NCBI GenBank assembly: GCA_017307505.1
Contig: JAFKEE010000043.1
Span: 1 to 64,000, forward strand
DNA: 64,000 nt
Source of the DNA: Acidobacteriota bacterium
Lineage (GTDB): Bacteria; Acidobacteriota; Terriglobia; Bryobacterales; Bryobacteraceae
Direction of reading: 5' to 3'
Part shown: piece after piece, positions 15,179-30,520 of the stretch
Position numbering within the stretch: position 1 is the first letter of the stretch
How the letters are laid out: every line of letters begins with the position of its first letter
The notes under the pieces: generated by a model
Seen by the model: only the letters and a program-made list of their open reading frames with translations
Told to the model about the DNA's origin: nothing
Databases searched by the model: none
Translations under genes and position numbers: made by a program

Positions 15179-16132
15179 TTACTTCAAACCCGTTGAGAAG
15201 ACAGCGTTTTCCTCGAAGACCGTGGCTTCCTGGATGTAGCGCCGCACCATGACCGTACTGCGGTGTCCGGTCTGGCGCATGATCGAACGCTCGGAGGCGC
15301 CGCCGCGAGCTGCCTCGGTCGCCAGGCCGGATCGCAGACTGTGCGCGCCGTAGGAGTCCGCTTCGCGGCCCGCCCTGCCCATCCAACGCTGGACGATGCG
15401 CGCCACCATACGGTCCGAGAGCCGGTTCTTGCCTGCGCTGCCATCCGGAGCCACGGCCCGGAACACCGCGCCTTCCCCGTAGCCGGAGACGGCGCGCCAC
15501 CGCTCCAGAGCCCGGACGGGGCAGAGCTTCTTCCGGCCGGAGCGCGGGATGCCGAGAATCCGACCGGCGCCTTCCTGATCCGTCTTCGACCGGCGGATTG
15601 TGATCTTCGCCCCTTCCTCGCTGAACTCCAGGTCTTCCCAGTCGAGCCCCACCAGTTCCGACCGGCGGAAGGCGCCCGCAAATCCGGCCAGCAGGAGGGC
15701 CGAGTCGCGCAGGCCGGCGGGTGTATCGGGCATCAGGTCCAGCGCCGATTCCAGGTCGTCGACCAGCAGCGGCCTCTTGGCCTTCGGCCGGATGCCCTTC
15801 GTCCGGCGGATTCCGCGCAGTAGCGTTCGCACCAGCGGGCTGGCGCCGGGACTTTCATAGCCAGCGGCGGCATGGGCGGCCGCCAGAGCGGACAGACGCC
15901 GGCACAGGGTGCCGGTGGAGAAGTGGTCGGCCATCTCCGTCAGATAACGGGCCAGGGTCTCCGGACTGGCGGGCAGCGCTTCCCTGCCCTCGTCCTGGCA
16001 CCAGGTTTCAAAGTGACGCCAATCGGAGCGGTAGGCTTTCTGGGTGTTCCCGGCACGGGCCTGCGCCAGGTAGGCCCAGGCCCTGGCTTCGATACTGGAG
16101 GGGGCTGGCAGCGGATCGAGGTCCCGGGTCAC
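15179..16132 (-). CDS. Tyrosine recombinase (phage integrase/Xer family)
   Basis: A 317-residue recombinase with a SAM-like N-terminal core-binding domain (NTQKAYRSDWRHFETWCQ) and a full catalytic set: R156, K183 in RRSKTD, H264 and R267 in AHSLRSG, H290 in QTGHRS, and the nucleophile Y299 in RRYIQEA. The length suits Xer-like resolvases and integron/transposon recombinases more than phage integrases with an arm-binding domain. A perfect dyad lies 23 bp upstream of its start and looks like a core recombination site. It could resolve plasmid multimers or move the element. Confidence 0.9.
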   Translation of the reverse strand: MTRDLDPLPAPSSIEARAWAYLAQARAGNTQKAYRSDWRHFETWCQDEGREALPASPETLARYLTEMADHFSTGTLCRRLSALAAAHAAAGYESPGASPLVRTLLRGIRRTKGIRPKAKRPLLVDDLESALDLMPDTPAGLRDSALLLAGFAGAFRRSELVGLDWEDLEFSEEGAKITIRRSKTDQEGAGRILGIPRSGRKKLCPVRALERWRAVSGYGEGAVFRAVAPDGSAGKNRLSDRMVARIVQRWMGRAGREADSYGAHSLRSGLATEAARGGASERSIMRQTGHRSTVMVRRYIQEATVFEENAVFSTGLK

Positions 16133-16181: not shown

Positions 16182-16199
16182 TACTCTTTATCCATATAT

Positions 16200-16213
16200 G
16201 GCGCATATGCGCC
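16200..16213. promoter_or_regulatory. 14-bp perfect palindrome, possible operator
   Basis: The sequence GGCGCATATGCGCC reads the same on both strands. It lies in the divergent promoter region between the recombinase and the gene at 16255, downstream of the 27-bp dyad. A repressor site is plausible; nothing in the sequence names the regulator. Confidence 0.35.
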
Positions 16214-16254
16214 CTACCGCAGACACGTATGGTAGTCTCTGTAGAAGGCCGCCC

Positions 16255-16770
16255 ATGCCAGACCAACCCTCATGGATCGAGAGAGTTCCCCAGATTCTCG
16301 ACGCGCTGCGGAGCGCCGGGTGCCCTCCGTTCCTCGACCGCGCCAGCGTGCAGCGGCTCTTCGGGGGCCTCTCCGCCCGGCAGGCAAACCGGCTGATGCA
16401 GAAATGCCACGGCTACCACGTGGGCCGCAGTGTACTGGTCGCCCGGGAGAGCCTGATCGCACTCGCGGAGAGCTGGAAGAAATCCGGCGCTGTCGACCGC
16501 GAGATGGCCCGGAAGGAAAAGCTGCTCTCGACGCTGGCGATCGCCCGGGTCGAGGCACGGAGCCGGGCTCTCCAGATTCCGGTGCAGGCCACCAATTCAT
16601 GGATGCAGTTCGACGACCTGTCGCCGGGGATCCGTTTCGCACCTGGTGAACTGAGGATCGAGTTCTCCGGCTCGATGGACCTGCTGCAGAAGCTCTTTGA
16701 GCTGTCGCAAGCCATCGCCAACGATCAGGTGCGGTTTGAAGCACTGGCCGATACGCCCCGGACATCCTAG
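16255..16770 (+). CDS. Hypothetical protein, possible HTH DNA-binding
   Basis: A 171-residue protein that I do not recognise. I chose the ATG at 16255 because an AGAAGG ribosome site sits about 6 nt before it; the frame extends to 16198. Residues ~20-60 (SVQRLFGGLSARQANRLMQKCHGYHVGRSVLVARESLIAL) look like a helix-turn-helix followed by a wing, as in excisionase-like or phage regulator proteins. The C-terminal half ends in a predicted amphipathic segment. It is divergent from the recombinase and converges on the winged-helix gene, overlapping its end by 4 bp. Confidence 0.55.
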   Translation: MPDQPSWIERVPQILDALRSAGCPPFLDRASVQRLFGGLSARQANRLMQKCHGYHVGRSVLVARESLIALAESWKKSGAVDREMARKEKLLSTLAIARVEARSRALQIPVQATNSWMQFDDLSPGIRFAPGELRIEFSGSMDLLQKLFELSQAIANDQVRFEALADTPRTS

Positions 16771-18527
16771 TTGCCCGCTAACATCCTGCGGGCATAGGCC
16801 TTATCCTCTTCCGGAACGCGTGGGTCGGACAGCCAGGCCTGCCATTCTCCGCGTAGTTGGGCCAGGTCTTCCCTGGCCTGACGGGCTGCGGCCTCTTCCA
16901 TGACCCGTGCCTGGCGCACTTCCTGGCGGAACCGGCGGAAGCTGTCGCCGGCGAAGCACTTCGGAACATAGACAAGAAGGTAGGCCAAGGGATTGGCCAT
17001 CTTCCCCGCCCGGGCCAGGCGTCCCTTCTCATGGATGAAGTGAACGATCTCTTCCGTGGTCGCATCCGGAGCATGGCGCCGGGCGCCAGCGGCGAGCATC
17101 CGTGCTGCCTCACCATCGGCCGAGGCGTACTGGCTGAGTGCCTGCTGCACCGGAGACGTCTCGCCTTCATCACTACCTGGAGCTTTAACCCATGCCAATT
17201 CAGCGGGTTCACTGGACCCTACGGAGGATGTTATTCCTACCGTAGGCTTAACACCCACGGTAGGAGATTGATGTGTTCGTAATCCGGGTGTCTCGCCCAC
17301 AGGCCAGACGAACTCGACGGCCCTGCCCTTCTTGATGACAAAGAGCATGTTCTCCGCCTGCTGCCGTTCCAGGATCTCGTCGTAATTGAAGATGCGGTAA
17401 GTGCGCCCGATGCGAGCCGAACTGTCTTCGTTGGCCAGCACCTCGAGCACCCGCTTGGCCACCAGTTTCGGGATCAACTGCCGGACGCTCTTCTCATCCA
17501 ACCGTACGAGTTTGGCCAGGCGGTCATACCCCATCGAGAACACCTTGGACCGCGGACCGTCCCGGCGCACCCCGTCGGCTTCACGGGCGTGCCAGACGGA
17601 TTGGTAGAAGCGCTCCTCGCCCAGGGTCATGCAGTGCTGGGCGATCTGAACCCTCAAGACCTTGCGGCTTTCGTAGGTGCCGCCGTGAGCATCCACCCAT
17701 TGCGTAACACCCACGGTGGCGGAATGACCCGCCGTGGCGGTTTTTCGCCCGGCAGAACCGGCGGCAGCCGCCGGCGATTTCCACGTAACTACACCACCTA
17801 CGGTAGGCAAATCCCCTTCGGTGGGTAGATCGCCGGTGTCGGCCGGCTCTTCCACGGAGGAGGAAACACCCACGGCAGGTGAATTATTACCTAATTTAGA
17901 ATCAAGCGGTTGAGAACCATTGATATCTTGATGCTCTGATTCACCCACCGTAGGCGTATCGCCTGATTTGTTTCGTTCAGTTAAAACTCCCACGGTGGCA
18001 GTTTGACCCGCGGGGGGCGATACGCCCTCAATGGGGCGCGTCAGAGAGGCCCGTTTCGGTGCCGGAGTATCGCCCACGGTAGGCTGTTGCCCTTCGGTGG
18101 GCGCTATGGGAACGGCCGGAGAATGCACTACGGCAGGAGTTTCGTCGACCGTGGGCGTTACGATTTCCACGGAACTACCCCAGGTAGAACCCATTTGAGG
18201 AGGGGCGGCCTCTCCTTCACCCACTGCAGGCGATACGCCGACCGTGAGCGGAATAGCCTCCGTGGCAGAAACGACCTCCGTGGGCGTTTCCTCAAACTGC
18301 GGAGAAGCCGGCATAGCCAATGCTTTTGCCGGAGGTGGTGTAGGGGCGGGGAAGCGTTCGATCCGGCTCTCGTCCAGGGCCAGACGGCGGGCGGCGCGGT
18401 CCTTGGCGGCGTCGGCCGGTGTGGCCAGCACCTCGGTCAGCCCGCGGAGGGCGGGCCCGGCCGCCAGTTCCTTCCAGTTCAGTGGTTCCGGTTGCCGCTT
18501 AGGCTTTTTCTTGGGTGCTTGTGCCAT
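16767..18527 (-). CDS. ParA-partner winged-helix protein with embedded palindrome array (module 1)
   Basis: A 586-residue protein. It has a basic N-terminus (MAQAPKKKPKRQ) and a long low-complexity region (~80-280) of hexapeptide-like units with core PTVG. A winged-helix domain follows at ~300-390 (SLGEERFYQSVW-like, then DEKSVRQLIPKLVAKRVLEVL and RTYRIF). Further PTVG units lie at ~420-440, and the C-terminus is helical (~480-586). The winged-helix domain aligns by eye with the protein at 23709-24476. The start overlaps the ParA gene by 29 bp. PTVG units are encoded by the palindrome-like CCTACSGTAGG, so the gene may carry its own binding sites. A ParB-like adaptor or replication role is inferred; I know no named family for it. 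Confidence 0.7.
   Translation of the reverse strand: MAQAPKKKPKRQPEPLNWKELAAGPALRGLTEVLATPADAAKDRAARRLALDESRIERFPAPTPPPAKALAMPASPQFEETPTEVVSATEAIPLTVGVSPAVGEGEAAPPQMGSTWGSSVEIVTPTVDETPAVVHSPAVPIAPTEGQQPTVGDTPAPKRASLTRPIEGVSPPAGQTATVGVLTERNKSGDTPTVGESEHQDINGSQPLDSKLGNNSPAVGVSSSVEEPADTGDLPTEGDLPTVGGVVTWKSPAAAAGSAGRKTATAGHSATVGVTQWVDAHGGTYESRKVLRVQIAQHCMTLGEERFYQSVWHAREADGVRRDGPRSKVFSMGYDRLAKLVRLDEKSVRQLIPKLVAKRVLEVLANEDSSARIGRTYRIFNYDEILERQQAENMLFVIKKGRAVEFVWPVGETPGLRTHQSPTVGVKPTVGITSSVGSSEPAELAWVKAPGSDEGETSPVQQALSQYASADGEAARMLAAGARRHAPDATTEEIVHFIHEKGRLARAGKMANPLAYLLVYVPKCFAGDSFRRFRQEVRQARVMEEAAARQAREDLAQLRGEWQAWLSDPRVPEEDKAYARRMLAGN
17779..17795 (+). repeat. RepA-type iteron inside the module 1 gene
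   Basis: TTCCACGTAACTACACC matches the iteron consensus TTCCACGGAACTACACC of the 22.0-22.5 kb array at 16 of 17 positions, although it lies over 4 kb away within a coding region. Confidence 0.65.
18165..18181 (+). repeat. RepA-type iteron inside the module 1 gene
   Basis: TTCCACGGAACTACCCC matches the iteron consensus at 16 of 17 positions. It is the second copy in the ParA-partner gene, 386 bp from the first. Confidence 0.6.
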
Positions 18528-19305
18528 TCGTCACACCAGTCGAGAGGCCATTCAAAAGCATATTGGCGGCGATCTCGTAGTCTTCCAGCGCCTTGGATTT
18601 AGGATCGTAGTCCTGGACAAACTGACGGGCACGAGCCGCCTTGACGACGGCGGTATCGGTGCGGATGTTGGGCAGCAGCGGGACACGCAGCTCGGCTGAC
18701 ATCTCCTGGAGGGCGGTTAGGACGGTCTGGGTCATCTGCAGGCGGTTGTTGACCATGACGGGGAGCAGCCCGATGGAGGCGATCCCTACCTGGCGCTTGA
18801 ACAACCGATTGAGTTCATTCGCCGAACTGATGCTGGCGCTGGCACCCTGGACGCTCAGCGTTTCCATGGCGACGGGAATCAGCACATGTTTCGTATAGAG
18901 CATGGCGCAGGTCTGAAACAGAGTCAGCGACGGCGCCACGTCGATGACGACGGCGTCGTAGGCGCGATCCACGCCGCTGTCGCCAAACACCTGCTCGAAA
19001 TAGAGTTCCCGCAGCGTCTGGCCGCTGATAATATCCTCGGCGGCCTGGGTCTTGCGGTCGCTGCAGAGGACGTCGAGGTTCTCGTGGGCCTTGACGACGC
19101 ACTCGGAGAACAAGACCTGTCGAATCAGATAGTCGTGGAGGGTGAACTCGGGCCTGAGGCCCAGGATGGTCGATACCGAGCCCTGGGAATCTGTATCGAT
19201 GAGTAGCGTCTTCAGATTGCGATCGGCAAAGCACCGGGCCAGGGTGACGGCGCTGGTCGTTTTGGCGACACCACCGCGCTGGTTGCTGACAACAAGTCGA
19301 ATCAT
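18499..19305 (-). CDS. parA: ParA-type ATPase (module 1)
   Basis: A 268-residue P-loop ATPase of the ParA/MinD/Soj type. The deviant Walker A is NQRGGVAKTT (residues 8-17); the signature Lys that normally precedes GG is Arg10, while the P-loop Lys15 is kept. Walker A' is LLIDTDSQGS and Walker B is AVVIDVAPSL. It probably binds DNA non-specifically and segregates a replicon with a centromere-binding partner. It starts by a 4-bp overlap with the small HTH gene and overlaps the winged-helix gene by 29 bp, so all three are coupled. There is no N-terminal HTH, as in short type Ib ParAs. Confidence 0.88.
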   Translation of the reverse strand: MIRLVVSNQRGGVAKTTSAVTLARCFADRNLKTLLIDTDSQGSVSTILGLRPEFTLHDYLIRQVLFSECVVKAHENLDVLCSDRKTQAAEDIISGQTLRELYFEQVFGDSGVDRAYDAVVIDVAPSLTLFQTCAMLYTKHVLIPVAMETLSVQGASASISSANELNRLFKRQVGIASIGLLPVMVNNRLQMTQTVLTALQEMSAELRVPLLPNIRTDTAVVKAARARQFVQDYDPKSKALEDYEIAANMLLNGLSTGVTNGTSTQEKA

Positions 19306-19541
19306 AGCTTACGTTTGGGCCTCCTGGGCGTCGGGCGCGGCACTTGAGAGAGTTCCTGCAAAGCGAGGTCGATGTCAGAAGGGGTCCACCAGCGGCGTTC
19401 CGTCCCGCCGCGCTGAACGGGCGCGGTGAGGGTGCCGTCTTTCAGCTTGCGGAAGAAGGTGGCCCGGCTGAGGCCAAGTTGTTTCCAGGCAAGCTCATCC
19501 GGCAGTGCATTGGGTGGACGAGGGACCTTCTGATACGCCAT
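19302..19541 (-). CDS. Small HTH (MerR/excisionase-like) regulator, module 1
   Basis: A 79-residue basic protein. The core WKQLGLSRATFFRKLKDGTLTAPV-RRWWTPSDI fits the HTH_17/MerR-like winged-helix fold of excisionases and plasmid regulators. It overlaps the parA start by 4 bp, as in the second module, so it is probably the autoregulator of the operon. Confidence 0.75.
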   Translation of the reverse strand: MAYQKVPRPPNALPDELAWKQLGLSRATFFRKLKDGTLTAPVQRGGTERRWWTPSDIDLALQELSQVPRPTPRRPKRKL

Positions 19542-20454: not shown

Positions 20455-21939
20455 TCAGAAGATGCTGCGCTGCGGATTCTGTTTCTGCCACTGCTCGAAG
20501 CCTGGCAGGCTGAGCCCCTCGCGGACCTCGGCGCGGAGCATGGATTCCGCCAGATTGCGGCGGCCGATGCTGGAAAGGCGGCCAAACAGATCGGGTTGCT
20601 CACGCCGGATCTGCTTCAATTTCGCGCCCAACGCCTCTTCCAGCCGCTCGCCGGGGTAGAGTTCTTCCTGTTTGGCGGTCACCTGCTGGTCGCAGTAGCA
20701 GTCATATTCCAGCCGGGCCGTGTAGGAGTCGGCCTCAGGAATTCCTTTGGCGGACGCGCCGGCCGAGGAGTCAAAGTGCTGAGGCAGGCCGATGTTATTC
20801 TCGATGGCCCAGATGTAGAGTCCAGCCGGGTTGTGCCACTTGCCCTTCTGGTCGCTCCGGATGAGGTGGTCTACATACTCCAACTGTTTGAAAACAGGTT
20901 GTGTGTCCGGAATATCCAAGGCCAGTTGCCGGGCTTTGCGTTCGGTCACGCCGCGGGCCACCAGTTCCGGGACCCACTTGGGCAGACTGGCCTCCAGGGC
21001 GGCACGCGCCTCCGGGTTCACGACCGCATGGAAGTTGGGCAGGGAGAGCAGGCGATTGCCAGGCGAGAGCACGAGTTTGAAGTCGCTGCCGCGGGTGGTC
21101 CGGATCAGGTCCCAACTGGACAGGTAGCCGATGTGAACCAGTTCCTCCATGGACGGCTGGAGCACGGCGCGGGCTTTCGACAGGTGCGGATAGGCTCGAA
21201 TGTGGAGCAACTGGCACAGATCCTGGTACTTCTTCTCCACAGGCATGCCCTTGCTGGCGTAGAACCAGATGCTGAGGTGCCCGAACAGGGCTTTGGCGAT
21301 GTCGCGATGCAGCCGCAGGTAGGCGTTGAAGTCGAGAGGTAAGAGGTAGCCCTGGTTGAAATTCGTCAACTGCCAGTGGGAGAGGAAGACCTCGTAGTAA
21401 TCGGAGCGGCGTCCGTCGTTGAGTTCTTCACCGAACAGGACGACACGGTCGAAGACGTGGAAGGTATCGCTGGCGTACTGGCGCCGGTCGGCCAGGAAGA
21501 TCGAGGATTCGGACAGGATGGTGGTGGCCACCATCCGTTTGCACCAGTCGTTGATTTCGTCGTAGTGGAAGCCGCCTTTGCAGAGGCGGAGCAGTTTGAT
21601 GAGGTCGGCGCCGGCGAAGCGGACGGGATTGGCCAGTTGGCCCTGATCGTCGCGCTGGTCGAGCGCGATTTTCATAAAGGCCATGTACTTGTCGCGGTCC
21701 GCCGTAGTGGGGAGACCGAGGCTGGGAATGCCTTCAATGACGGCCTTGGCGTGGATACGCTGTCCGTCGGGCCGTCGAATCACCTGGACAACGGAGCGAG
21801 AGATTTCCTTGTTGGCCGTGGAAGCAAAGAAGCCCACAGAATGCAGGCTTTTCTCGACGCGGACGAGGTCTGCCGGATTTTCTTCGATGACAACAACACC
21901 ATCCAAGGTGCCCTGCTGTCCTGTTTTGTCCTTCGCCAT
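20455..21939 (-). CDS. repA: RepA-type plasmid replication initiator
   Basis: A 494-residue protein resembling the plasmid replication initiator protein A family (RPA). The segment GLPTTADRDKYMAFMKIA and the following winged-helix-like region are typical of that family, as are the downstream FHVFDRVVLFGEELNDGRRSD and HLSIWFYASKGMPVEKKY stretches. A C-terminal extension of ~150 residues is charged. The start (ATG at 21939) lies directly downstream of the iteron array on the same strand, the usual rep arrangement. It should bind the iterons, open the origin and recruit host DnaB. Family assignment is from memory of the motif. Confidence 0.8.
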   Translation of the reverse strand: MAKDKTGQQGTLDGVVVIEENPADLVRVEKSLHSVGFFASTANKEISRSVVQVIRRPDGQRIHAKAVIEGIPSLGLPTTADRDKYMAFMKIALDQRDDQGQLANPVRFAGADLIKLLRLCKGGFHYDEINDWCKRMVATTILSESSIFLADRRQYASDTFHVFDRVVLFGEELNDGRRSDYYEVFLSHWQLTNFNQGYLLPLDFNAYLRLHRDIAKALFGHLSIWFYASKGMPVEKKYQDLCQLLHIRAYPHLSKARAVLQPSMEELVHIGYLSSWDLIRTTRGSDFKLVLSPGNRLLSLPNFHAVVNPEARAALEASLPKWVPELVARGVTERKARQLALDIPDTQPVFKQLEYVDHLIRSDQKGKWHNPAGLYIWAIENNIGLPQHFDSSAGASAKGIPEADSYTARLEYDCYCDQQVTAKQEELYPGERLEEALGAKLKQIRREQPDLFGRLSSIGRRNLAESMLRAEVREGLSLPGFEQWQKQNPQRSIF

Positions 21940-22047: not shown

Positions 22048-22532
22048 TTCCACGAACCTACACCAAAGCTTCCACAGGCCTTCACCTGTTCTTCCACACA
22101 GCTACACTGCGATTTCCACGAACCCACACGATAGTTCCTCTCAACTACACTGGTTTTCCACGAAACTGCACCGTCTGGAAGGGCTTGGACGGCATTCTGG
22201 ATCGCAGTGTACGAATATTGAGGCCTCAAGATCCTCTCTAGCCGGGGATAAGCCTTATGTGGGGGTAAGGCAAGCTTCTGAGTTTGCCACGCAACTACAC
22301 CACAGGGGACAAATCCTTCCACGGAACTACACCGAAGAGCAGGAACAGACGGCGCCCGGCTTGTGATTTCTTCCACAGAACTACACCGCATTTTGAAGGG
22401 GTTTCTTCGCAAGCCCATCGATGACAACCCCTTGGCGGGATTTTGGCTGGGCTGGAGACCACAGAGGCCCACCCTCCCGGATGAGGTAGTCCCATTTTCA
22501 AAGGTATAGGCAGATTTCCACGGATCTACACC
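22048..22532 (+). repeat. Iteron array, probable replication origin
   Basis: Ten copies of a 17-bp repeat (consensus TTCCACGGAACTACACC) start at 22048, 22070, 22092, 22114, 22135, 22156, 22285, 22317, 22371 and 22516. The first six are 22, 22, 22, 21 and 21 bp apart, about two helical turns, all in the same orientation. They lie just upstream of repA. An apparent ORF across this stretch on the minus strand (21978-22670) is a by-product of the repeats. No clear DnaA box was found. Confidence 0.85.
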
Positions 22533-22535
22533 AGA

Positions 22536-22545
22536 CCCCATGGGG
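22536..22545. repeat. CCCCATGGGG palindrome near the origin
   Basis: A 10-bp perfect palindrome directly after the last iteron. The same core recurs inside the module 2 winged-helix gene (23981-23990, and a shorter form at 23905-23915) and at 24862-24871 (ACCCATGGGT). Confidence 0.55.
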
Positions 22546-22748: not shown

Positions 22749-22940
22749 ATGGTGAAGAAGCGGCGGGATAGCACGCTGACGACCACCCAGGTAGCTCGGA
22801 TCCTTGGTGTGACTCCGAAGACGCTGTACCGCATGTTGAAGGACGGCCGCATTTCCGAACCTGCACGGAACCCGGATAACAACTACCGCCTGTGGTCGCC
22901 TTACGAGATTCAGAGAATCCAGGAGGAGCTTTCCCGATGA
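22749..22940 (+). CDS. Small HTH (MerR/excisionase-like) regulator, module 2
   Basis: A 63-residue basic protein, TTTQVARILGVTPKTLYRMLKDGRISEPA-RLWSPYEI, with the HTH_17-like pattern and recognition helix in PKTLYRML. Its stop overlaps the parA start by 4 bp (ATGA at 22937-22940), exactly the layout of module 1. It may repress the operon; the spacing upstream (22680-22748) is AT-rich and probably holds the promoter. Confidence 0.8.
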   Translation: MVKKRRDSTLTTTQVARILGVTPKTLYRMLKDGRISEPARNPDNNYRLWSPYEIQRIQEELSR

Positions 22941-23743
22941 TCCGTCTCACGGTCGGCAACCAGCGCGGCGGTGTGGGCAAGACCACAACCGCGCTTACCC
23001 TGGCCCGTCTTTTCGCCGAACGGGGCTTGCGCACGCTGTTGGTGGATGCGGATCCGCAGGGATCCATCGGCAGCATTCTGCGGGTGAAGCCGGAGCTGTA
23101 CCTGAACGACTTCCTGTGGAACAAGCGGCGGCTGTCGGACTGCGTTGTGCAGCCGCTGGAGAACCTGGATGTGCTGTGCAGCAACCGGGACACGCTGGAA
23201 GCGGAGCAGCGGGCGATTGGAACGATTGGCCGGGAGCGGATCTTCGAGAACATCTTCCAACCGGTGGAGGATCACTATGACGCGGTGATCGTCGATATCG
23301 GCCCCTCGCTGAGCCTGATGCAGATCTGTGCCCTGGTCTATACCACCGACTATGTCGTGCCGATCTCGATGGACGCGCTGAGTGTGACGGGCGCGACGGC
23401 GTTCTTCAACACCGCTTATCAACTGGAAGTGCAGCTCAAGAAGAACTGCCGTTGTGTCGGACTGCTGCCCACGATCGTCGACCACCGCTACCAGAACACG
23501 GAGATGGTGATGAAGATGATTGAGCTGATCAGCCAGAACTACAAGGTAGCGGTGCTGCCCAGCATCCGCACCGATTCCACCGTGGCGAAGGCGATCCGGC
23601 TGAGGCAGTTCATCGCCAATGTCGATCCCAAGGCCAAGTGCCTGGAAGACTACAAGGCGGTGGCCGACCAGTTGCTGGCGCTGTACGGGGTGCGGCAGGA
23701 GACAGGCAATGGCAGCGAAGAACAAGCGTCGCAGGTTGCCTGA
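22937..23743 (+). CDS. parA: ParA-type ATPase (module 2)
   Basis: A 268-residue ATPase, the same length as the module 1 protein and clearly its paralog. The deviant Walker A is NQRGGVGKTTTAL; again Arg10 stands where the signature Lys is expected. Walker A' is LLVDADPQGS and Walker B is AVIVDIGPSL. An AGGAGG-type ribosome site lies inside the HTH gene just upstream. The protein probably segregates the replicon together with the winged-helix partner encoded downstream, which it overlaps by 35 bp. Confidence 0.9.
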   Translation: MIRLTVGNQRGGVGKTTTALTLARLFAERGLRTLLVDADPQGSIGSILRVKPELYLNDFLWNKRRLSDCVVQPLENLDVLCSNRDTLEAEQRAIGTIGRERIFENIFQPVEDHYDAVIVDIGPSLSLMQICALVYTTDYVVPISMDALSVTGATAFFNTAYQLEVQLKKNCRCVGLLPTIVDHRYQNTEMVMKMIELISQNYKVAVLPSIRTDSTVAKAIRLRQFIANVDPKAKCLEDYKAVADQLLALYGVRQETGNGSEEQASQVA

Positions 23744-24476
23744 AGAGGACCTGGAAGCTTCTATCCAGGACATCCTGCAAAGCCCGATCACGAAGGTAAA
23801 CCTCTCGTTCCTGAACACGGACTTTGGAGACGGCCCGGCGCCTGGCGCCGTGGTGAACCAACCGGTAGTTCCGTCTTTGCCTGATGGCATGGGGGCTGAG
23901 ATAAACCCCATGGGTGTTGTAGTAAGCCAATCTGGGTTGGAGCCCGGTGTTGCCGCTGGCGAGAGCGGCGTTGGAACAAACCCCATGGGGGGTAGCCCAG
24001 AACCCGTGCTCCCTGGCTCAACCCATCCTGGATCCCAGGAGCAGAAGAAGGACCACACGCTTTGGAGGGCTGAGCATCTGGGCGCCTTCTTCGAAGGGTC
24101 CCGGGTCCGGCCGATCCACCGGGCCGAGGATGCTCTTTCGGTGGCGGAGCAGCGGGTCTATGAGTTTTTGTGGACCACCGGCACCGACGGAGGCGATGCC
24201 TACCGCCTGGTGCACTGCAGCCTGCAGCGGATTTCCAGCCAGTTGAAGCTGAACATCAAAACCGTCCGTGAACTGCTGCCCAGGATGGCCGAGAAGGGAT
24301 TTATTGCCGTCGAGCGGGAGGCGGACGTGCGTCGTAACATCGCCACTCTCTACCGGGTATGGAGCGGAGCGGCGATCCTGGCGGCGCAACAGGGGTTTGA
24401 CCGGCGCTGGGTGGTGAAGACCGGGCGGGGCGTGTTCTACGTGCGCAAGACGACCGTTTCCGTGACGGGCGGCTGA
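23709..24476 (+). CDS. ParA-partner winged-helix protein (module 2)
   Basis: A 255-residue protein starting inside the parA end (ATG at 23709, GGAG about 9 nt before). A basic N-terminus (MAAKNKRRRLPEEDL) leads to a flexible region (~40-118) with two NPMG units. A winged-helix domain follows at ~143-230 (SVAEQRVYEFLW, NIKTVRELLPRMAEKGFIAVER, ATLYRVW). It aligns with the module 1 domain: K-S/T-VR-Q/E-L-I/L-P-K/R-L/M, then T-x-YR. The NPMG units are encoded by CCCCATGGG(G)-type palindromes, the parallel of PTVG in module 1. A centromere-binding adaptor role is inferred. Confidence 0.7.
   Translation: MAAKNKRRRLPEEDLEASIQDILQSPITKVNLSFLNTDFGDGPAPGAVVNQPVVPSLPDGMGAEINPMGVVVSQSGLEPGVAAGESGVGTNPMGGSPEPVLPGSTHPGSQEQKKDHTLWRAEHLGAFFEGSRVRPIHRAEDALSVAEQRVYEFLWTTGTDGGDAYRLVHCSLQRISSQLKLNIKTVRELLPRMAEKGFIAVEREADVRRNIATLYRVWSGAAILAAQQGFDRRWVVKTGRGVFYVRKTTVSVTGG
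23905..23990. repeat. CCATGG-centred palindromes inside the module 2 gene
   Basis: Two copies, ACCCCATGGGT at 23905-23915 and CCCCATGGGG at 23981-23990, each encoding NPMG in frame, 75 bp apart (24 codons plus 3). A weaker relative (GCATGGGGGC) lies at 23888. Confidence 0.5.
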
Positions 24477-24984: not shown

Positions 24985-26150
24985 TCACTCGATGGCGAGA
25001 GTCACCGTGTTGCTGGCCAGCGGGTCACCCGCCGCCGGGTGCAGCGTAAGCTGCACCGCAACGTCGAAGCCGGGGGCCGCAGCTTGTGGAACACGCACCA
25101 CGATGAGGTAGACGCCGGCGGCCTTTGGATCGGGAATGACAGACTGAATGGCCGCGTCGATGCCTCCGATGGAGACGCTGAGAGCGCCCGGGGTATCGGC
25201 AATGGGTCCGAGGCCAGTGGCGCGAATAGAGACCAGGTCACCGGGCAAAGCGGGCTCACCCAACTGACGGGCATCGCGAACGATGGCCAGACGGTCGGAG
25301 TCAGGGAAAGTGATGAAGCCTTCGGGCTGGTCGGCCGAAGGGTTGGAGTCAGGCACCGCGAGGATGACGGGATTGGCCTCGAGCATTGTGGTCTGCAGGG
25401 AGGCGGTGTCGCCGCTTTCCGTCTCGACGGTGATGTCGAGTTGGGCACCCGGGTCGGCCGAGGGGCAGAGGAAGGTCAGGCGCGTGGGGCTGGCCGAGAG
25501 CAGCGGAACTACGGAGCCATTGACGCGGACGAGGGAGCCGCTGAGCTGGAGTGAGGCGCCGGAGGGATCGGAGTCTGAAGAATCGTCAGAGGTGAGCCAG
25601 CGGCCATGAATGGAAGCCAGGGCTCCGGGGGAGCAGGCGGTGAGTTCCGGCTTGGGGATGAGCGGCAACCCGGAGTCGACGGTGACAGGGACCGTGCCAG
25701 GCGCAGCCACGCCGGCGGAGTTGGAGGCGGCGAAGGAGAGGGTTGAGTCGCCGGTCTGGTTGGGCGCCGGGGTCCAGAGGAACTGGCCGGAGTCGGGCTG
25801 GAAGGCCGCGCCAGCGGGGAGTCCGGAGGACGAAAGGGTGACGGGCAGGCCGGAGCCATCCTGAGCGGAGACCGTGAAGCCGAGGGGAGCGCCGAGTTTG
25901 ACGAACTGGCGGTCAGGGAGGCTGATCACCGGAGACGGGGAGGGCGAGATGGAGATTTCGTCCGAGGTGAGAGAGAAGTTGTCACCGGCGGTAATGCGGA
26001 CAGACGACAGAGAGGCCGAGGGATCCACGACGCCGCGGAAGGAGAACAAGCGTTGGCCGGTACGGGCTGAGAGAGTGGCCGGCAGGCGGACGTCGGAACT
26101 GGAGGCTGTGACGGGAATGGCCTCGAGGTTGGAGTAGGAATCGCCAAGGC
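24985..26150 (-). repeat. Direct repeat of adhesin C-terminal coding region (copy 1)
   Basis: The 3' ~1.1 kb of this gene is strikingly similar to 31477-32640, the 3' end of the next adhesin gene on the same strand. The intervening ~5 kb holds the response regulator, so homologous recombination between the copies could delete or exchange sequence. Confidence 0.6.
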
Positions 26151-29100
26151 TCAACTGGCAGAGGAAGGAATCGCCGGCGGTGACGTTTTTGGGCGAGCAG
26201 GAGAGCCGCGAGTCGGAATGGGTATTCACGAGGGCGGGGCCGGCGGCCATGGTGGAGAGCGAAGCGGGCGCTTTCGAGGAAGTCAGCGGGCTCTGTTGTT
26301 GGCTGGTGATTGAGATGGTCCCGGGCGAGGTGGACGGAACGGAGTTGAAGACGACATCCACCCAGTAATTGCTGTCATAGAAGGAATTGGTTGGAAATGC
26401 CCCGGCGGTATAGATGTAGCTGCCGTTCTTGCCGTCGTCGCCGCTCTTGAGTGCATAGAGGGGCCCGCTTTCAATACCGGAGGAAGTGAAGTAGCTGGGA
26501 GTGACGGAGTAGGCTCCTTTGGGCGCCTGGTAGGAGACGACGTAGGTGGTGTTTGCGGTGATCGCGACGGGGCTCGAGAAATTCGCCTGCTGCCATCCGG
26601 ATCCTGTTTCTCCGTTGAACGTCACCGAGGCGAGCAAGGAACCGTTCTTCGACCAAAGGCGGCCGGTGTGGACTCCGGTGTTGTTGAGTCCTTTATAGAA
26701 GCGCACACCAATGACGTAGCCGGAGACGCGGCTGCGGAACTTCATGCCCAGTTCGATGGTCACGGTGTCGGTGGAGGTGACGATGGACGGTGTGGCCGAG
26801 GAGGTCCAGATGGAGCAGGGGCAGGTGCTGCTGGAGGCAGGCTGCAGGGAAAGGGAGACAGATTGAGAGGTGGCGTCGAGAGCCGCGGTCACCTGGACGG
26901 TCTGCTTGGAAGTTACCGTTCCGGCGGTGAGGCTGAAGGAAGCCGAACTGGCTCCGGCGGGAACCGTGACGGAAGCCGGTGTGTTCAGTAGCCAGCTATT
27001 GTCCGTCAGCGTTACGACCCGGCCGCCCGCAGGAGCGGGGCCGGTGAGCATGACGGTGCAGGTAGCACGTGTGCCGGAGGCGATGGAGAAGGCGGGGCAG
27101 GTGAGCGCGCTGATGCCCAGATTGGGCGTGATGGTCACCGTGGTGGTCTTGGAATTCCCACCGATGGCGGCGGTGAGCACGATGGGCAGATCCTGACTCG
27201 GCTGGCTCAGGTAACGGCTGACAGAGGCGGTGAAATCCACAGTGGATGATCCGGCCGCGGCGATGATCCAGGCAGGGACAGAGAGAGCGTTATTGCTGAC
27301 AGTGATGGCGAGGGCCTGCCCTCCGCTCTTGGCAGGCGTCGACAGAATGACGGTACAGACCGAGGAACCACCCGCGGAGAGGAGGGTGCCCGAACAGCTC
27401 AGGTCACTGATCTCGGTGACCTGGGTCTGGGGTGTGATGGTGAGGGAAGAGGTCTTGGCTGTCCCGTTGGCGCTGGCGGTGACGGTGACTGCGGTGCTGA
27501 CCGAGACTGTGGAGGCGGAGACGGAGAAGATGCCTGCAGTGGTGCCCTCGGGCACGGTGACAGTGGCCGGCAGGGTGAGAGCCGCATTATTGGCGGCGAG
27601 AGCGACCACTTGCCCGCCGGTTGGCGCGGCACCGGAGAGGGTGAGCGTACAGGACGCGGCGCCACCGGCCGGGATGGAGGAGGGCAGGCAGGAGAGGATG
27701 GTGGGCACAATCACTCCGGTCACTGTTACGGAGGCGGTTTTCGAAGCGCCGTTGGCTGTGGCGGTGACGACAACCGGCGCGTTGGTGGTCACCGAGCCAG
27801 CGGTGACAGTGAAGACGGCGGACGTGGATCCGGACGCGACGGTGACGGAAGCGGGTGTCGTGAGGGCGGCGCTGTTATCGGAGAGGGTCACCTGCTGGCC
27901 ACCGGTCGGTGCGGCGGCAGAGAGGGTGACGGTGCAGGAGGAGGATCCACCGGAGGTGATGGAAGTGGGCGAGCACGAGAGCGTGGTGGGTACGGGCTGG
28001 GTGGTGATGGTGACAGAAGCGGTTTTCGAGGTGTTGTTGGCCGTGGCCGTGATGACGACCGCCGTGTTGGTGATGACGGAGGCGGCTGTGGCCTTGAAGA
28101 CCGCCGAGGTCGAACCGGCCGCGATCGTGACGGAAGCGGGAATCGAGAGAGCCGCGTTGTTGTCAGACAGGGTTACCAGTTGACCACCCGTGGGTGCGGC
28201 GGCGGAGAGAGTAACGGTGCACGAGGAAGAGCCGCCGGAGGTGATGGACGCCGGCAGGCAGGAGAGCGTGCTCGGGGCGGGCAGGGAACTCACGGTGACA
28301 GAAGTGGTCCTGGAGGTTCCGTTAGCAGCGGCGGTGATGACAACTCTTGTGTCGACCGTGACCGAGGTGGCGGTGACGGCGAAGACGGCGGAGGTCGCGC
28401 CGCTGGCGACGGTGACAGAGGCCGGTGTGGTCAGTGCCTTGTTGTCGTCGGAGAGTGTCACCAGCTGACCACCGGCCGGGGCCGCGGCGGACAGGGTAAC
28501 AGTGCAAGAGGCAGAGCTGCCTGGTGAGAGGGAAACGGGCGCGCACCAGAGTGTACTGGGCACAGACGGTGCAGTCACAGTGACAGAAGCTGTCCTGGCG
28601 GTGCTGTTGGCCGTGGCTGTGACGACAACGGAGGCACTGGCTGTGACGGAGGCGGCCGTGACGGAAAAGGTGGCCGAAGTGGATCCCGAAGCGACGGTGA
28701 CGGAAGCGGGCGTGGTGAGAGCCGCGCTGTTGTCGGAGAGGGTCACCAACTGACCACCGGCTGGTGCAGCTGCGGAGAGAGCCACGGTGCAGGTGGCGGA
28801 ACTGCCGGAGGGGAGGGAGGCCGGTGAGCAGGAGAGCGTGCTGGGCACGGGCCGGGCGGTCACTGTGAGAGAAGCTGTCCTGGTGGTGCCGTTGGCCGTG
28901 GCTGTGACGGCAACCGCGGTACTGGTGGTGACCGAAGCGGCGGTGACCGTGAAGGTCCCGGAGGTTGCGCCGGCAGCGACCGTGATGGAAGCGGGGGTGG
29001 TGAGCGCGGTGCTGTTGTCGGAGAGGGTCACCTGTTGGCCACCGGCTGGTGCAGCGACGGAGAGAGTCACCGTGCAGGTGGCGGAACTTCCGGAGGGGAG

Positions 29101-30498
29101 GGAGGCCGGCGAGCACGAAAGGGTGCTGGGTATGAGCGGCGCGGTGACCGTGACGGAGGCCGTCCTGGAGGTGCCGTTGGCCGCCGCGGTGATGACAACT
29201 GCGGTATTGGAGGTGACAGAGGCGGCGGTGGCGGAGAAGGAGGCCGAGGTCGCGCCGGCGGGGACTGTGACGGAAGCAGGTATGGTGAGGGCTGCGCTGT
29301 TGTCGGAGAGGGTCACCAACTGGCCACCCGTCGGTGCGGCGCCGGAGAGTGTGACGGTGCAGGAGGAGGATCCACCGGAGCTGATGGAAGCGGGTGAACA
29401 CGAAAGCGAGTTGGGTACAGGCAGGGCGGTTACGGTGACCGTGGAGGTCTTGGAGGTTCCGTTGGCGGTTGCTGTGACGACGACCGCTGTGCTGGCAGTG
29501 ACCGAGGCGGCGGTGACGGAGAAGGCAGCGGAAGTTGCGCCGCCGGCGACGGTGACGGAAGCGGGTGTAGAGAGAGCGGCGTTGTTGTCGGAGAGGGTCA
29601 CGAGCTGCCCACCGATGGGCGCAGCGGCAGAAAGGGTGACTGTGCAGGTGGCGGTACTGCCGGAGGAAATGGAGGCAGGCAAGCAGGTAAGAGTGCTGGG
29701 GGCAGGCAGGGCGGTTAGTGTGAGAGAGGCAGTTTTGGACGTGCCATTTGCGGTAGCGGTGATGACGGCCAATGTATTGGTAAGGATTGAGGTTGCCGTG
29801 ACCGAGAAAGTGGCGGAAGTTGCGCCGGCCGGGACCGTGACGGAAGCGGGTGTAGAGAGAGCGGCGTTGTTGTCGGCGAGGGTAACGAGTTGTCCACCGG
29901 CAGGGGCGGCGGCGGAAAGAGTGACAGTGCAGGTGGCAGAGCCGCCGGAGAGGATGGAAGTGAGAGAGCAGGTCAGTGACGATACGGCTACCGGTGTCGT
30001 AGCTGCGATGGAGATGGTGCCATCGGTTGCCAGTGCAGTCAGAAAATCACCCGTGGGAGAGGACGCCAAAACCTGGGGTGCCGTCAGCAGGCGGGTGGGC
30101 GCAGTCGAATTCGCGAGCGTGAGGCTGACATTGGCCACGGTCCCAACTGGAATTGCCGTTGAATTCGCACCAACCAGCAGGCAGGTGTAGGTGCCGTTGG
30201 TTCCGGAACAGAAGAGGGACTTGCCGGCGCTGGCCGCAGCGGAACTCGCCGTAACCTGGATGGCTGAGAAGTCGGTTGGGGAGTAAGAGAAGGTCCACTG
30301 TAAGGCGGCAGGCAGGGTTGTCGCGCTGGTAAGGGACAGGCCAAGGTTGGCTGTTGCTCCGTTGGAAGAGGTTGCGGACCCGAGCGAGAGGGAAACCTGG
30401 GGGGTATTGGCCAAGGCGGAGGGAATGAATGGCTGTAGGAGGAAAGCGAGAAGTAGCCCAAGCGGAAGCCGGAAACATTGATGCTGAAACTGTTTCAT
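24985..30498 (-). CDS. Giant secreted adhesin with ~11 Cys-paired Ig-like repeats
   Basis: About 1837 residues. A signal peptide (hydrophobic core LPLGLLLAFLLQPF, then ALA-N) is followed by a cohesin-like domain (~35-165), then about 11 tandem ~89-residue Ig-like repeats (to ~1160). Each repeat has two Cys about 13 residues apart (LxCxPxS...SCTVTLS), so a disulphide is likely. Next come a DUF4082-like module (CPCSIWTSSATP, FYKGLNNTGVH), He_PIG-like Ig domains, and a C-terminal module of the Solibacter type (ALPGDLVSIRATGLG). The ATG at 30498 is preferred to a TTG at 30513. It is probably cell-surface bound or a matrix protein; the binding target is unknown. Confidence 0.8.
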   Translation of the reverse strand: MKQFQHQCFRLPLGLLLAFLLQPFIPSALANTPQVSLSLGSATSSNGATANLGLSLTSATTLPAALQWTFSYSPTDFSAIQVTASSAAASAGKSLFCSGTNGTYTCLLVGANSTAIPVGTVANVSLTLANSTAPTRLLTAPQVLASSPTGDFLTALATDGTISIAATTPVAVSSLTCSLTSILSGGSATCTVTLSAAAPAGGQLVTLADNNAALSTPASVTVPAGATSATFSVTATSILTNTLAVITATANGTSKTASLTLTALPAPSTLTCLPASISSGSTATCTVTLSAAAPIGGQLVTLSDNNAALSTPASVTVAGGATSAAFSVTAASVTASTAVVVTATANGTSKTSTVTVTALPVPNSLSCSPASISSGGSSSCTVTLSGAAPTGGQLVTLSDNSAALTIPASVTVPAGATSASFSATAASVTSNTAVVITAAANGTSRTASVTVTAPLIPSTLSCSPASLPSGSSATCTVTLSVAAPAGGQQVTLSDNSTALTTPASITVAAGATSGTFTVTAASVTTSTAVAVTATANGTTRTASLTVTARPVPSTLSCSPASLPSGSSATCTVALSAAAPAGGQLVTLSDNSAALTTPASVTVASGSTSATFSVTAASVTASASVVVTATANSTARTASVTVTAPSVPSTLWCAPVSLSPGSSASCTVTLSAAAPAGGQLVTLSDDNKALTTPASVTVASGATSAVFAVTATSVTVDTRVVITAAANGTSRTTSVTVSSLPAPSTLSCLPASITSGGSSSCTVTLSAAAPTGGQLVTLSDNNAALSIPASVTIAAGSTSAVFKATAASVITNTAVVITATANNTSKTASVTITTQPVPTTLSCSPTSITSGGSSSCTVTLSAAAPTGGQQVTLSDNSAALTTPASVTVASGSTSAVFTVTAGSVTTNAPVVVTATANGASKTASVTVTGVIVPTILSCLPSSIPAGGAASCTLTLSGAAPTGGQVVALAANNAALTLPATVTVPEGTTAGIFSVSASTVSVSTAVTVTASANGTAKTSSLTITPQTQVTEISDLSCSGTLLSAGGSSVCTVILSTPAKSGGQALAITVSNNALSVPAWIIAAAGSSTVDFTASVSRYLSQPSQDLPIVLTAAIGGNSKTTTVTITPNLGISALTCPAFSIASGTRATCTVMLTGPAPAGGRVVTLTDNSWLLNTPASVTVPAGASSASFSLTAGTVTSKQTVQVTAALDATSQSVSLSLQPASSSTCPCSIWTSSATPSIVTSTDTVTIELGMKFRSRVSGYVIGVRFYKGLNNTGVHTGRLWSKNGSLLASVTFNGETGSGWQQANFSSPVAITANTTYVVSYQAPKGAYSVTPSYFTSSGIESGPLYALKSGDDGKNGSYIYTAGAFPTNSFYDSNYWVDVVFNSVPSTSPGTISITSQQQSPLTSSKAPASLSTMAAGPALVNTHSDSRLSCSPKNVTAGDSFLCQLSLGDSYSNLEAIPVTASSSDVRLPATLSARTGQRLFSFRGVVDPSASLSSVRITAGDNFSLTSDEISISPSPSPVISLPDRQFVKLGAPLGFTVSAQDGSGLPVTLSSSGLPAGAAFQPDSGQFLWTPAPNQTGDSTLSFAASNSAGVAAPGTVPVTVDSGLPLIPKPELTACSPGALASIHGRWLTSDDSSDSDPSGASLQLSGSLVRVNGSVVPLLSASPTRLTFLCPSADPGAQLDITVETESGDTASLQTTMLEANPVILAVPDSNPSADQPEGFITFPDSDRLAIVRDARQLGEPALPGDLVSIRATGLGPIADTPGALSVSIGGIDAAIQSVIPDPKAAGVYLIVVRVPQAAAPGFDVAVQLTLHPAAGDPLASNTVTLAIE

Positions 30499-30512
30499 TT
30501 GTTCAAGATCCA

Positions 30513-30520
30513 AGTACTAT
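30513..30520. promoter_or_regulatory. AGTACTAT half-site upstream of an adhesin gene
   Basis: Half of the AGTACTAGTACT motif found upstream of other secreted-protein genes in this window, located about 15 bp before the start at 30498, so close that it would overlap the translation start region. Confidence 0.35.

Follow-up and report, generated by a model that had tools for sequence, protein, structure and literature searches.

The incA locus of plasmid P1 is similar to the incC locus of plasmid F. At incC, five iterons located downstream of repE exert negative regulation by looping (PMC13028717). On chromosome 2 of Vibrio cholerae, five iterons together with a 39-mer-like site, situated 40 kb from ori2, titrate the initiator RctB (PMC6090056), and inhibitory sites in the vicinity of parS2-B lose RctB to displacement by ParB2 (PMC3688505). 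Replicons of the repABC type contain parS sites inside open reading frames and oriV inside repC (PMC9040568), and parCAB of the Myxococcus plasmid pMF1 is a three-gene par locus encoding a small protein, ParA and a DNA-binding partner which binds the dispersed repeats of the locus (PMC3235114). How initiation is linked to segregation in low-copy replicons is a long-standing question with few tractable cases beyond Vibrio chromosome 2.

Here we describe a plasmid of a soil bacterium (Acidobacteriota) with two copies of its origin iteron inside the coding sequence of partner1, a gene which probably helps to share the plasmid copies between the daughter cells. As in F incC and P1 incA, iterons of the origin sequence are present as candidate secondary sites at kilobase-scale distance on a plasmid with a predicted RepE-fold initiator, for which negative control by titration and looping would be predicted. 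In contrast to incC, being a non-coding array of five iterons next to rep, only two copies are present here, which are coding and reside in the partner gene approximately 4 kb off. Because the copies form no array, are coding and lie away from rep, we do not file the locus as incC and only propose that it works like it. The likeness to V. cholerae chromosome 2, with its rctA 39-mer beside parS2-B and its datA-like locus (PMC3688505, PMC6090056, PMC11711613), comprises the fold of RctB, to which RepA is structurally closest, candidate initiator sites lying outside the core origin and one of these lying beside a putative partition site; there, the RctB sites are mostly 29/39-mers distinct from iterons and partition is mediated by ParB2, whereas the plasmid site lies inside the partner gene itself and the role of the partner sites is putative. 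With repABC replicons the plasmid shares cis-acting maintenance sites apparently selected in coding DNA near the replication/partition module; in those replicons parS is the site of the partition protein, whereas here initiator iterons and the gene's own palindromes are found in the partner gene, and the proteins are unrelated. The three-gene par layout with dispersed repeats is shared with pMF1, the "iterons" of which are, however, ParB sites and not initiator sites; the likeness concerns the layout. We found no case of initiator iterons lying within the gene of a partition partner in the open-access literature searched, an absence which counts as weak evidence. Initiator sites in a partition gene, recurring with different iterons, make the link of initiation and segregation directly accessible to tests with silent mutations, and some copy-number loci will be missed when only non-coding DNA is searched for them.

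A circular iteron plasmid

The contig closes to a circular plasmid of 116,529 bp, its ends overlapping exactly by 149 bp, within an Acidobacteriota genome of 9,385,101 bp (9.39 Mb). The window, i.e. the whole stretch of DNA analysed, represents 64 kb of this complete plasmid and is best read as containing the region for replication and partition of a 116.5-kb iteron plasmid of circular form (Table 1). On its testable features the plasmid is an iteron replicon. As the initial annotation had described, ten 17-bp iterons are present upstream of repA; the periodicity of 21-22 bp, about two helical turns, which it had ascribed to them applies to the first six only and does not extend to the other four, the successive spacings being 22, 22, 22, 21, 21, 129, 32, 54 and 145 bp. 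All twelve iterons, i.e. the ten of the origin and the two distal ones, are on the + strand, with repA and partner1 both encoded on the - strand. An exact-pattern search of the origin revealed no consensus DnaA boxes.

Table 1. Features of the replication and partition region, in window coordinates
Feature	Position	Strand	Description
partner1, 586 aa	16767..18527	-	winged-helix domain and C-terminal helical domain with linkers between; contains the distal iterons and ~10 palindromes
Palindrome array CCYACSGTRGG in partner1	17236..18101		exact at 17236, 17254, 17797, 17944, 18073; one mismatch at 17710, 17815, 17869, 17989, 18091; putative partner-protein sites
Distal iteron 1 (16/17), TTCCACGTAACTACACC, in partner1	17779-17795	+	codes GVVTW(K) on the - strand; 1 bp from palindrome 17797-17807
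Distal iteron 2 (16/17), TTCCACGGAACTACCCC, in partner1	18165-18181	+	other reading frame, GSSVE; C at motif position 14
parA1, ParA-type ATPase, module 1	18499..19305	-	overlaps partner1
hth1, 79-aa small helix-turn-helix-like protein	19302..19541	-	first in module 1; homology to HTH proteins heading related modules
repA, replication initiator	20455..21939	-	Pfam RPA PF10134; predicted fold similar to RctB domains 2-3 and RepE
Core iteron array	22048..22172	+	six 17-bp direct repeats, 21-22 bp pitch (starts 22048, 22070, 22092, 22114, 22135, 22156); proximal end ~110 bp upstream of the repA start
Dispersed origin iterons, four	22285..22532	+	starts 22285, 22317, 22371, 22516
Palindrome CCCCATGGGG	22536..22545		non-coding; follows the last origin iteron at a distance of 3 bp and precedes module 2; its core is also found in partner2, at 23904 (imperfect) and 23981
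hth2, MerR/excisionase-like HTH protein	22749..22940	+	first in module 2
parA2, ParA-type ATPase, module 2	22937..23743	+	
partner2, winged-helix partner, module 2	23709..24476	+	palindromes, without iteron

A de novo motif search on ~35 replicons of relatives showed that in nearly all of them repA is preceded by an iteron array, with the same core architecture (5-7 iterons, 21-22 bp pitch, end ~110-160 bp upstream of repA) and with iteron sequences differing between RepA lineages; the RepA family therefore constitutes a natural test set. Relatives in other Bryobacteraceae with a 60-85% identical RepA share the same iteron family.

Two further features of the window were observed. A 190-aa protein without Pfam match is encoded at 16198-16770 (+) beside a tyrosine recombinase (15179-16132, -); its homologues are found near repA/par in ~10 relatives, sometimes together with a recombinase, and it is possibly a conserved plasmid-maintenance gene. 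Tandem repeats of 285 bp occupy 27748-29960 and 34399-35028, the first array lying in the gene of an 1842-aa repeat protein (24985-30513, -).

The initiator RepA

RepA matches the Pfam family RPA above cut-off (E 1.6e-8). A sequence search against solved structures gave no match, and a fold search with its AlphaFold model (mean pLDDT 75, pTM 0.60) led to RctB and RepE, domains 2-3 of RctB being best aligned (Z 17.0, 4.5 Å over 249 residues), followed by RepE (Z 13.1) and pi (Z 12.7). RepA is predicted to be an initiator with a winged-helix Rep fold of the RctB/RepE-type, and the plasmid to represent a conserved family of such replicons in Bryobacteraceae, a group on whose plasmid replication we found almost nothing in the literature searched.

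Partition modules and palindromes

Both modules have the ParABS type I feature of a ParA Walker ATPase with an adjoining DNA-binding partner; the two ParA proteins match AAA_31 and the winged-helix partner gene overlaps parA. For partner1 no match was obtained in a search against a plasmid collection. Among the weak Foldseek matches of its winged helix (E 0.17) is 4rs8, the AspA-type centromere-binding protein of plasmid pNOB8, a common fold from which we do not claim membership. In the partner1 model, residues 147-185 of the folded segment are predicted to be disordered, and the N-terminal part of 280 residues consists largely of a linker rich in Pro and Thr.

Both linkers of partner1 contain a repeated PTVG peptide, the DNA of which is the near-palindromic CCYACSGTRGG. 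With ten observed palindromes, compared to a mean of 5.7 and a maximum of 11 in shuffles, their number is partly dictated by this peptide, and the case for selection at the DNA level therefore rests on the non-coding copies and on conservation across genera. The palindromes of the partner family are kept across genera and are found nowhere else in G000 and G023: the 13-mer CCYACSGTRGGTG has exactly three copies in G000, all within partner1, and is present in G023 only in the partner1 orthologue. Genes of the partner2-type carry CCCATGGG palindromes, with non-coding copies at 22536 in the window and at L030 5536, L037 1971 and 2041 and L119 7868. The likeliest reading of the palindromes is that they represent putative binding sites of the partners themselves (parS/operator).

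Two iteron copies inside partner1

The two 16/17 matches which the initial annotation had placed inside the module 1 gene were recovered exactly, on the same strand as the origin iterons; the one at 18165 has a C where 95% of the family iterons have an A. The window contains eight iteron matches with at most three mismatches, compared to 0.09 expected from shuffles. Across the whole genome (9.39 Mb), matches to SIGNIFICANCE with at most two mismatches are solely the origin and distal sites, the remaining 13 genome matches having three mismatches each. This genome-wide count had been suggested as a check on 16/17-like matches being frequent by chance elsewhere, which is not what we observed. 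A position weight matrix (PWM) built from 154 iterons of the RepA family gives scores of 25.0 and 27.5 for the two copies, and sites equalling them are expected 0.008 and 0.06 times per genome; otherwise nothing on the 116-kb contig scores above 14 except for a weak antisense match of 16.2 at 18337, also in partner1. For a short motif, and with many windows and genes read, matches by chance have to be considered. The genome-wide count and the PWM expectation, with no such site elsewhere and both copies sharing a single gene at 4 kb from the origin, lead us to reject this explanation for the window sites as extremely improbable.

The copies are encoded in different frames, i.e. GGT GTA GTT ACG TGG (GVVTW, GVVTWKS) versus tgG GGT AGT TCC GTG GAA (GSSVE, GSSVEI), and therefore represent a signal in the DNA and not a protein repeat. 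Upon shuffling of synonymous codons in partner1 with fixed amino acids and codon usage, two sites scoring at least 20 were obtained in 27 of 20,000 shuffles; a protein-repeat origin of the copies is ruled out by the different frames together with this rarity. The comparative evidence, including that from other replicons below, gives good support to the distal copies being real RepA sites.

Own iterons in partner genes of other replicons

We searched winged-helix partner genes for the iteron of the replicon they belong to and, as mismatched pairings, for those of other families, applying a threshold of E<0.01. The own iteron was present in 6/8 partner genes compared to 5/203 mismatched pairings; among other 1-kb tiles of the same replicons, 7/120 contain it. 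Positives are the window partner1 (two sites), L052/G037 (three copies, two of them strong), L126/G061, L123/G062, L117/G225, for which the pairing assumes that the partner contig and the iteron contig are one replicon, and L037/G103, which is marginal (E 0.006); L176/G063 is a further positive found after the 6/8 count. The partner-gene iteron is absent from the window partner2, L030 and L169, showing it to be frequent and not universal. Most additional partner loci lie on contigs that lack repA, and for this reason no iteron arrays were found beside them.

Three iteron sequences unrelated to each other are represented among the positives, i.e. A (GTGTAGnTnCGTGGAA; window, G225 and weakly G103), B (CCGTACnnnAAnGTAA; G037, G061 and G063) and C (TCGTTCCaCnGCGTAAA; G062), with the independent lineages being few (for A the window and G225, for B a single genus and for C a single genome) and many of the relatives being metagenome-assembled. 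Recurrence of the arrangement with different iterons in other plasmids is suggestive of a physical link between the control of copy number and partition. The bases invariant in the iteron, CCGTAC..GAA.GTAA, have stayed constant within G037, G061 and G063 while the encoded residues change from VQERK to VLESN, which looks like a conserved DNA site in a free linker.

The distal copies might also be an evolutionary by-product, a tolerant disordered linker near the origin keeping functionless iteron copies which arose by chance or gene conversion. The partner gene indeed tolerates much change and stray iterons are also found in other genes of the g24 genomes. Against this stand the recurrence over three iteron sequences at the frequencies given above, the persistence of the B-type invariant bases in three species and the fact that both window sites are still 16/17, and we regard a by-product as quite unlikely.

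The iteron tracks RepA and the palindrome tracks the partner

The nearest module 1 orthologues, in G129, G009 and G031 on replicons devoid of this RepA, have ParA proteins with 79-86% identity and contain 7, 7 and 1 exact palindromes, respectively, and no window-type iteron. A window-type PWM score of at least 18 is reached in only 3/31 partner genes, all of them in genomes with a RepA of the window-type (A). As judged from these comparisons, the iteron follows RepA and the palindrome follows the partner.

This bears on the possibility that the iteron-like sites are in fact sites of the partner or of the HTH protein resembling iterons. By inspection, a CCGTGG-like core is common to iteron and palindrome in the window, as is a CCGTA core in L052. 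The palindromes of partner1, however, score poorly as iterons on either strand (third-best 16.2 and fourth-best 1.5, against the two distal copies), and orthologous partners keep the palindromes without iterons, indicating that the iteron tracks RepA and not the partner; we consider this possibility very unlikely. A derivation of the iterons from the palindromes is likewise not supported by these scores.

Proposed role of the distal iterons

We consider it probable that the distal iterons are genuine secondary RepA sites working like F incC or the titration locus of V. cholerae chromosome 2 in limiting the copy number, placed in a disordered linker among putative parS palindromes. RepA as RctB/RepE-type initiator would bind the ten origin iterons resulting in the start of replication, and RepA on the distal iterons would titrate the initiator and/or loop or handcuff with the origin, thereby limiting the copy number. 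The distal iterons sharing the linker DNA with the partner palindromes would bring RepA and partition complexes side by side, which could compete. Of the roles considered for the distal copies, we rank titration or handcuffing of RepA as likeliest; RepA binding to these and negative control are what we infer from the analogy to the described systems. Two sites are few beside the five iterons of F incC, and the rare C at 18165 and the partner genes devoid of an iteron also weigh against this reading.

The initial annotation had proposed that Rep may bind the par-partner gene and either couple replication to partition or be titrated. The comparisons uphold the distal copies as RepA sites, being unique in the genome, missing from orthologues without this RepA and recurring in their placement with unrelated iterons. 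Coupling to partition is plausible and the foremost alternative, and it is brought in because the sites lie among putative partner palindromes and because ParB2 and RctB are known to compete at rctA. As the chief function of the distal iterons, tying replication to partition appears unlikely to us. Iteron 17779 lies 1 bp from the partner palindrome at 17797 and iteron 22516 lies 3 bp from the palindrome of the module-2 type at 22536; in L052 palindromes follow within ~6 bp after the last origin iteron, the V. cholerae precedent exists (PMC3688505), and it is partition partner genes, and not genes in general, that repeatedly host such iterons (6/8 partner genes versus 7/120 tiles). Yet the palindromes are so dense in partner1 that the adjacency at 17779 alone is not significant, and both the binding of the partner to the palindromes and a contact of RepA with the partner are hypothetical. 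It is also possible, if rather doubtful, that in a family of Acidobacteriota plasmids the partner gene acts as a dual-use cis platform, the DNA of the disordered linker forming an array of the partner's centromere sites into which iterons have been drawn time and again, co-varying with the RepA of each plasmid, and the segment serving as centromere, copy-number sensor and coupling point.

Iterons at other positions in relatives

In some relatives, unlike in the window, repA is immediately followed by one or two iterons. The own iteron is present just after the repA stop in 9/34 relatives compared to 13/956 mismatched pairings, a layout closer to incC. These own-type iterons are found at L030 7603, L133 6915, L038 2767, L039 5645 and L036 11512 and in L043, L045, L050 and L128; they are mostly inverted relative to the origin array, with an inverted pair in L030 and L038. 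Among the relatives examined, small in number, none has both after-repA and in-partner iterons; mutual exclusion of the two placements is not claimed, the cases being too few.

Iteron matches with at most one mismatch are present on other contigs of the g24 genus (G225, G023 and G224, with 11, 5 and 3) and of G175 (4), compared to 3 in the 57 Mb of eight genomes which lack a close relative of this RepA. We do not claim these dispersed g24 iterons as genome-wide RepA sites, at least two of them being coding repeats of a PQQ-like protein (GEVAWK-type). A second B-type iteron-like pair, probably non-coding, lies ~6.5 kb from repA in two g38 species (L052 17987 and 18029; L126 16887 and 16921). 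Finally, an iteron-like GGTGTAGCTGAGAGGAA, which might be kept by protein constraint or as a DNA signal, is found inside the repA coding sequence (GVAERK), ~940-990 bp in, in eight relatives and not in the window, i.e. at L027 10961, L029 2401, L030 7053, L133 6377, L037 5760 and L039 5118 and in L131 and L132.
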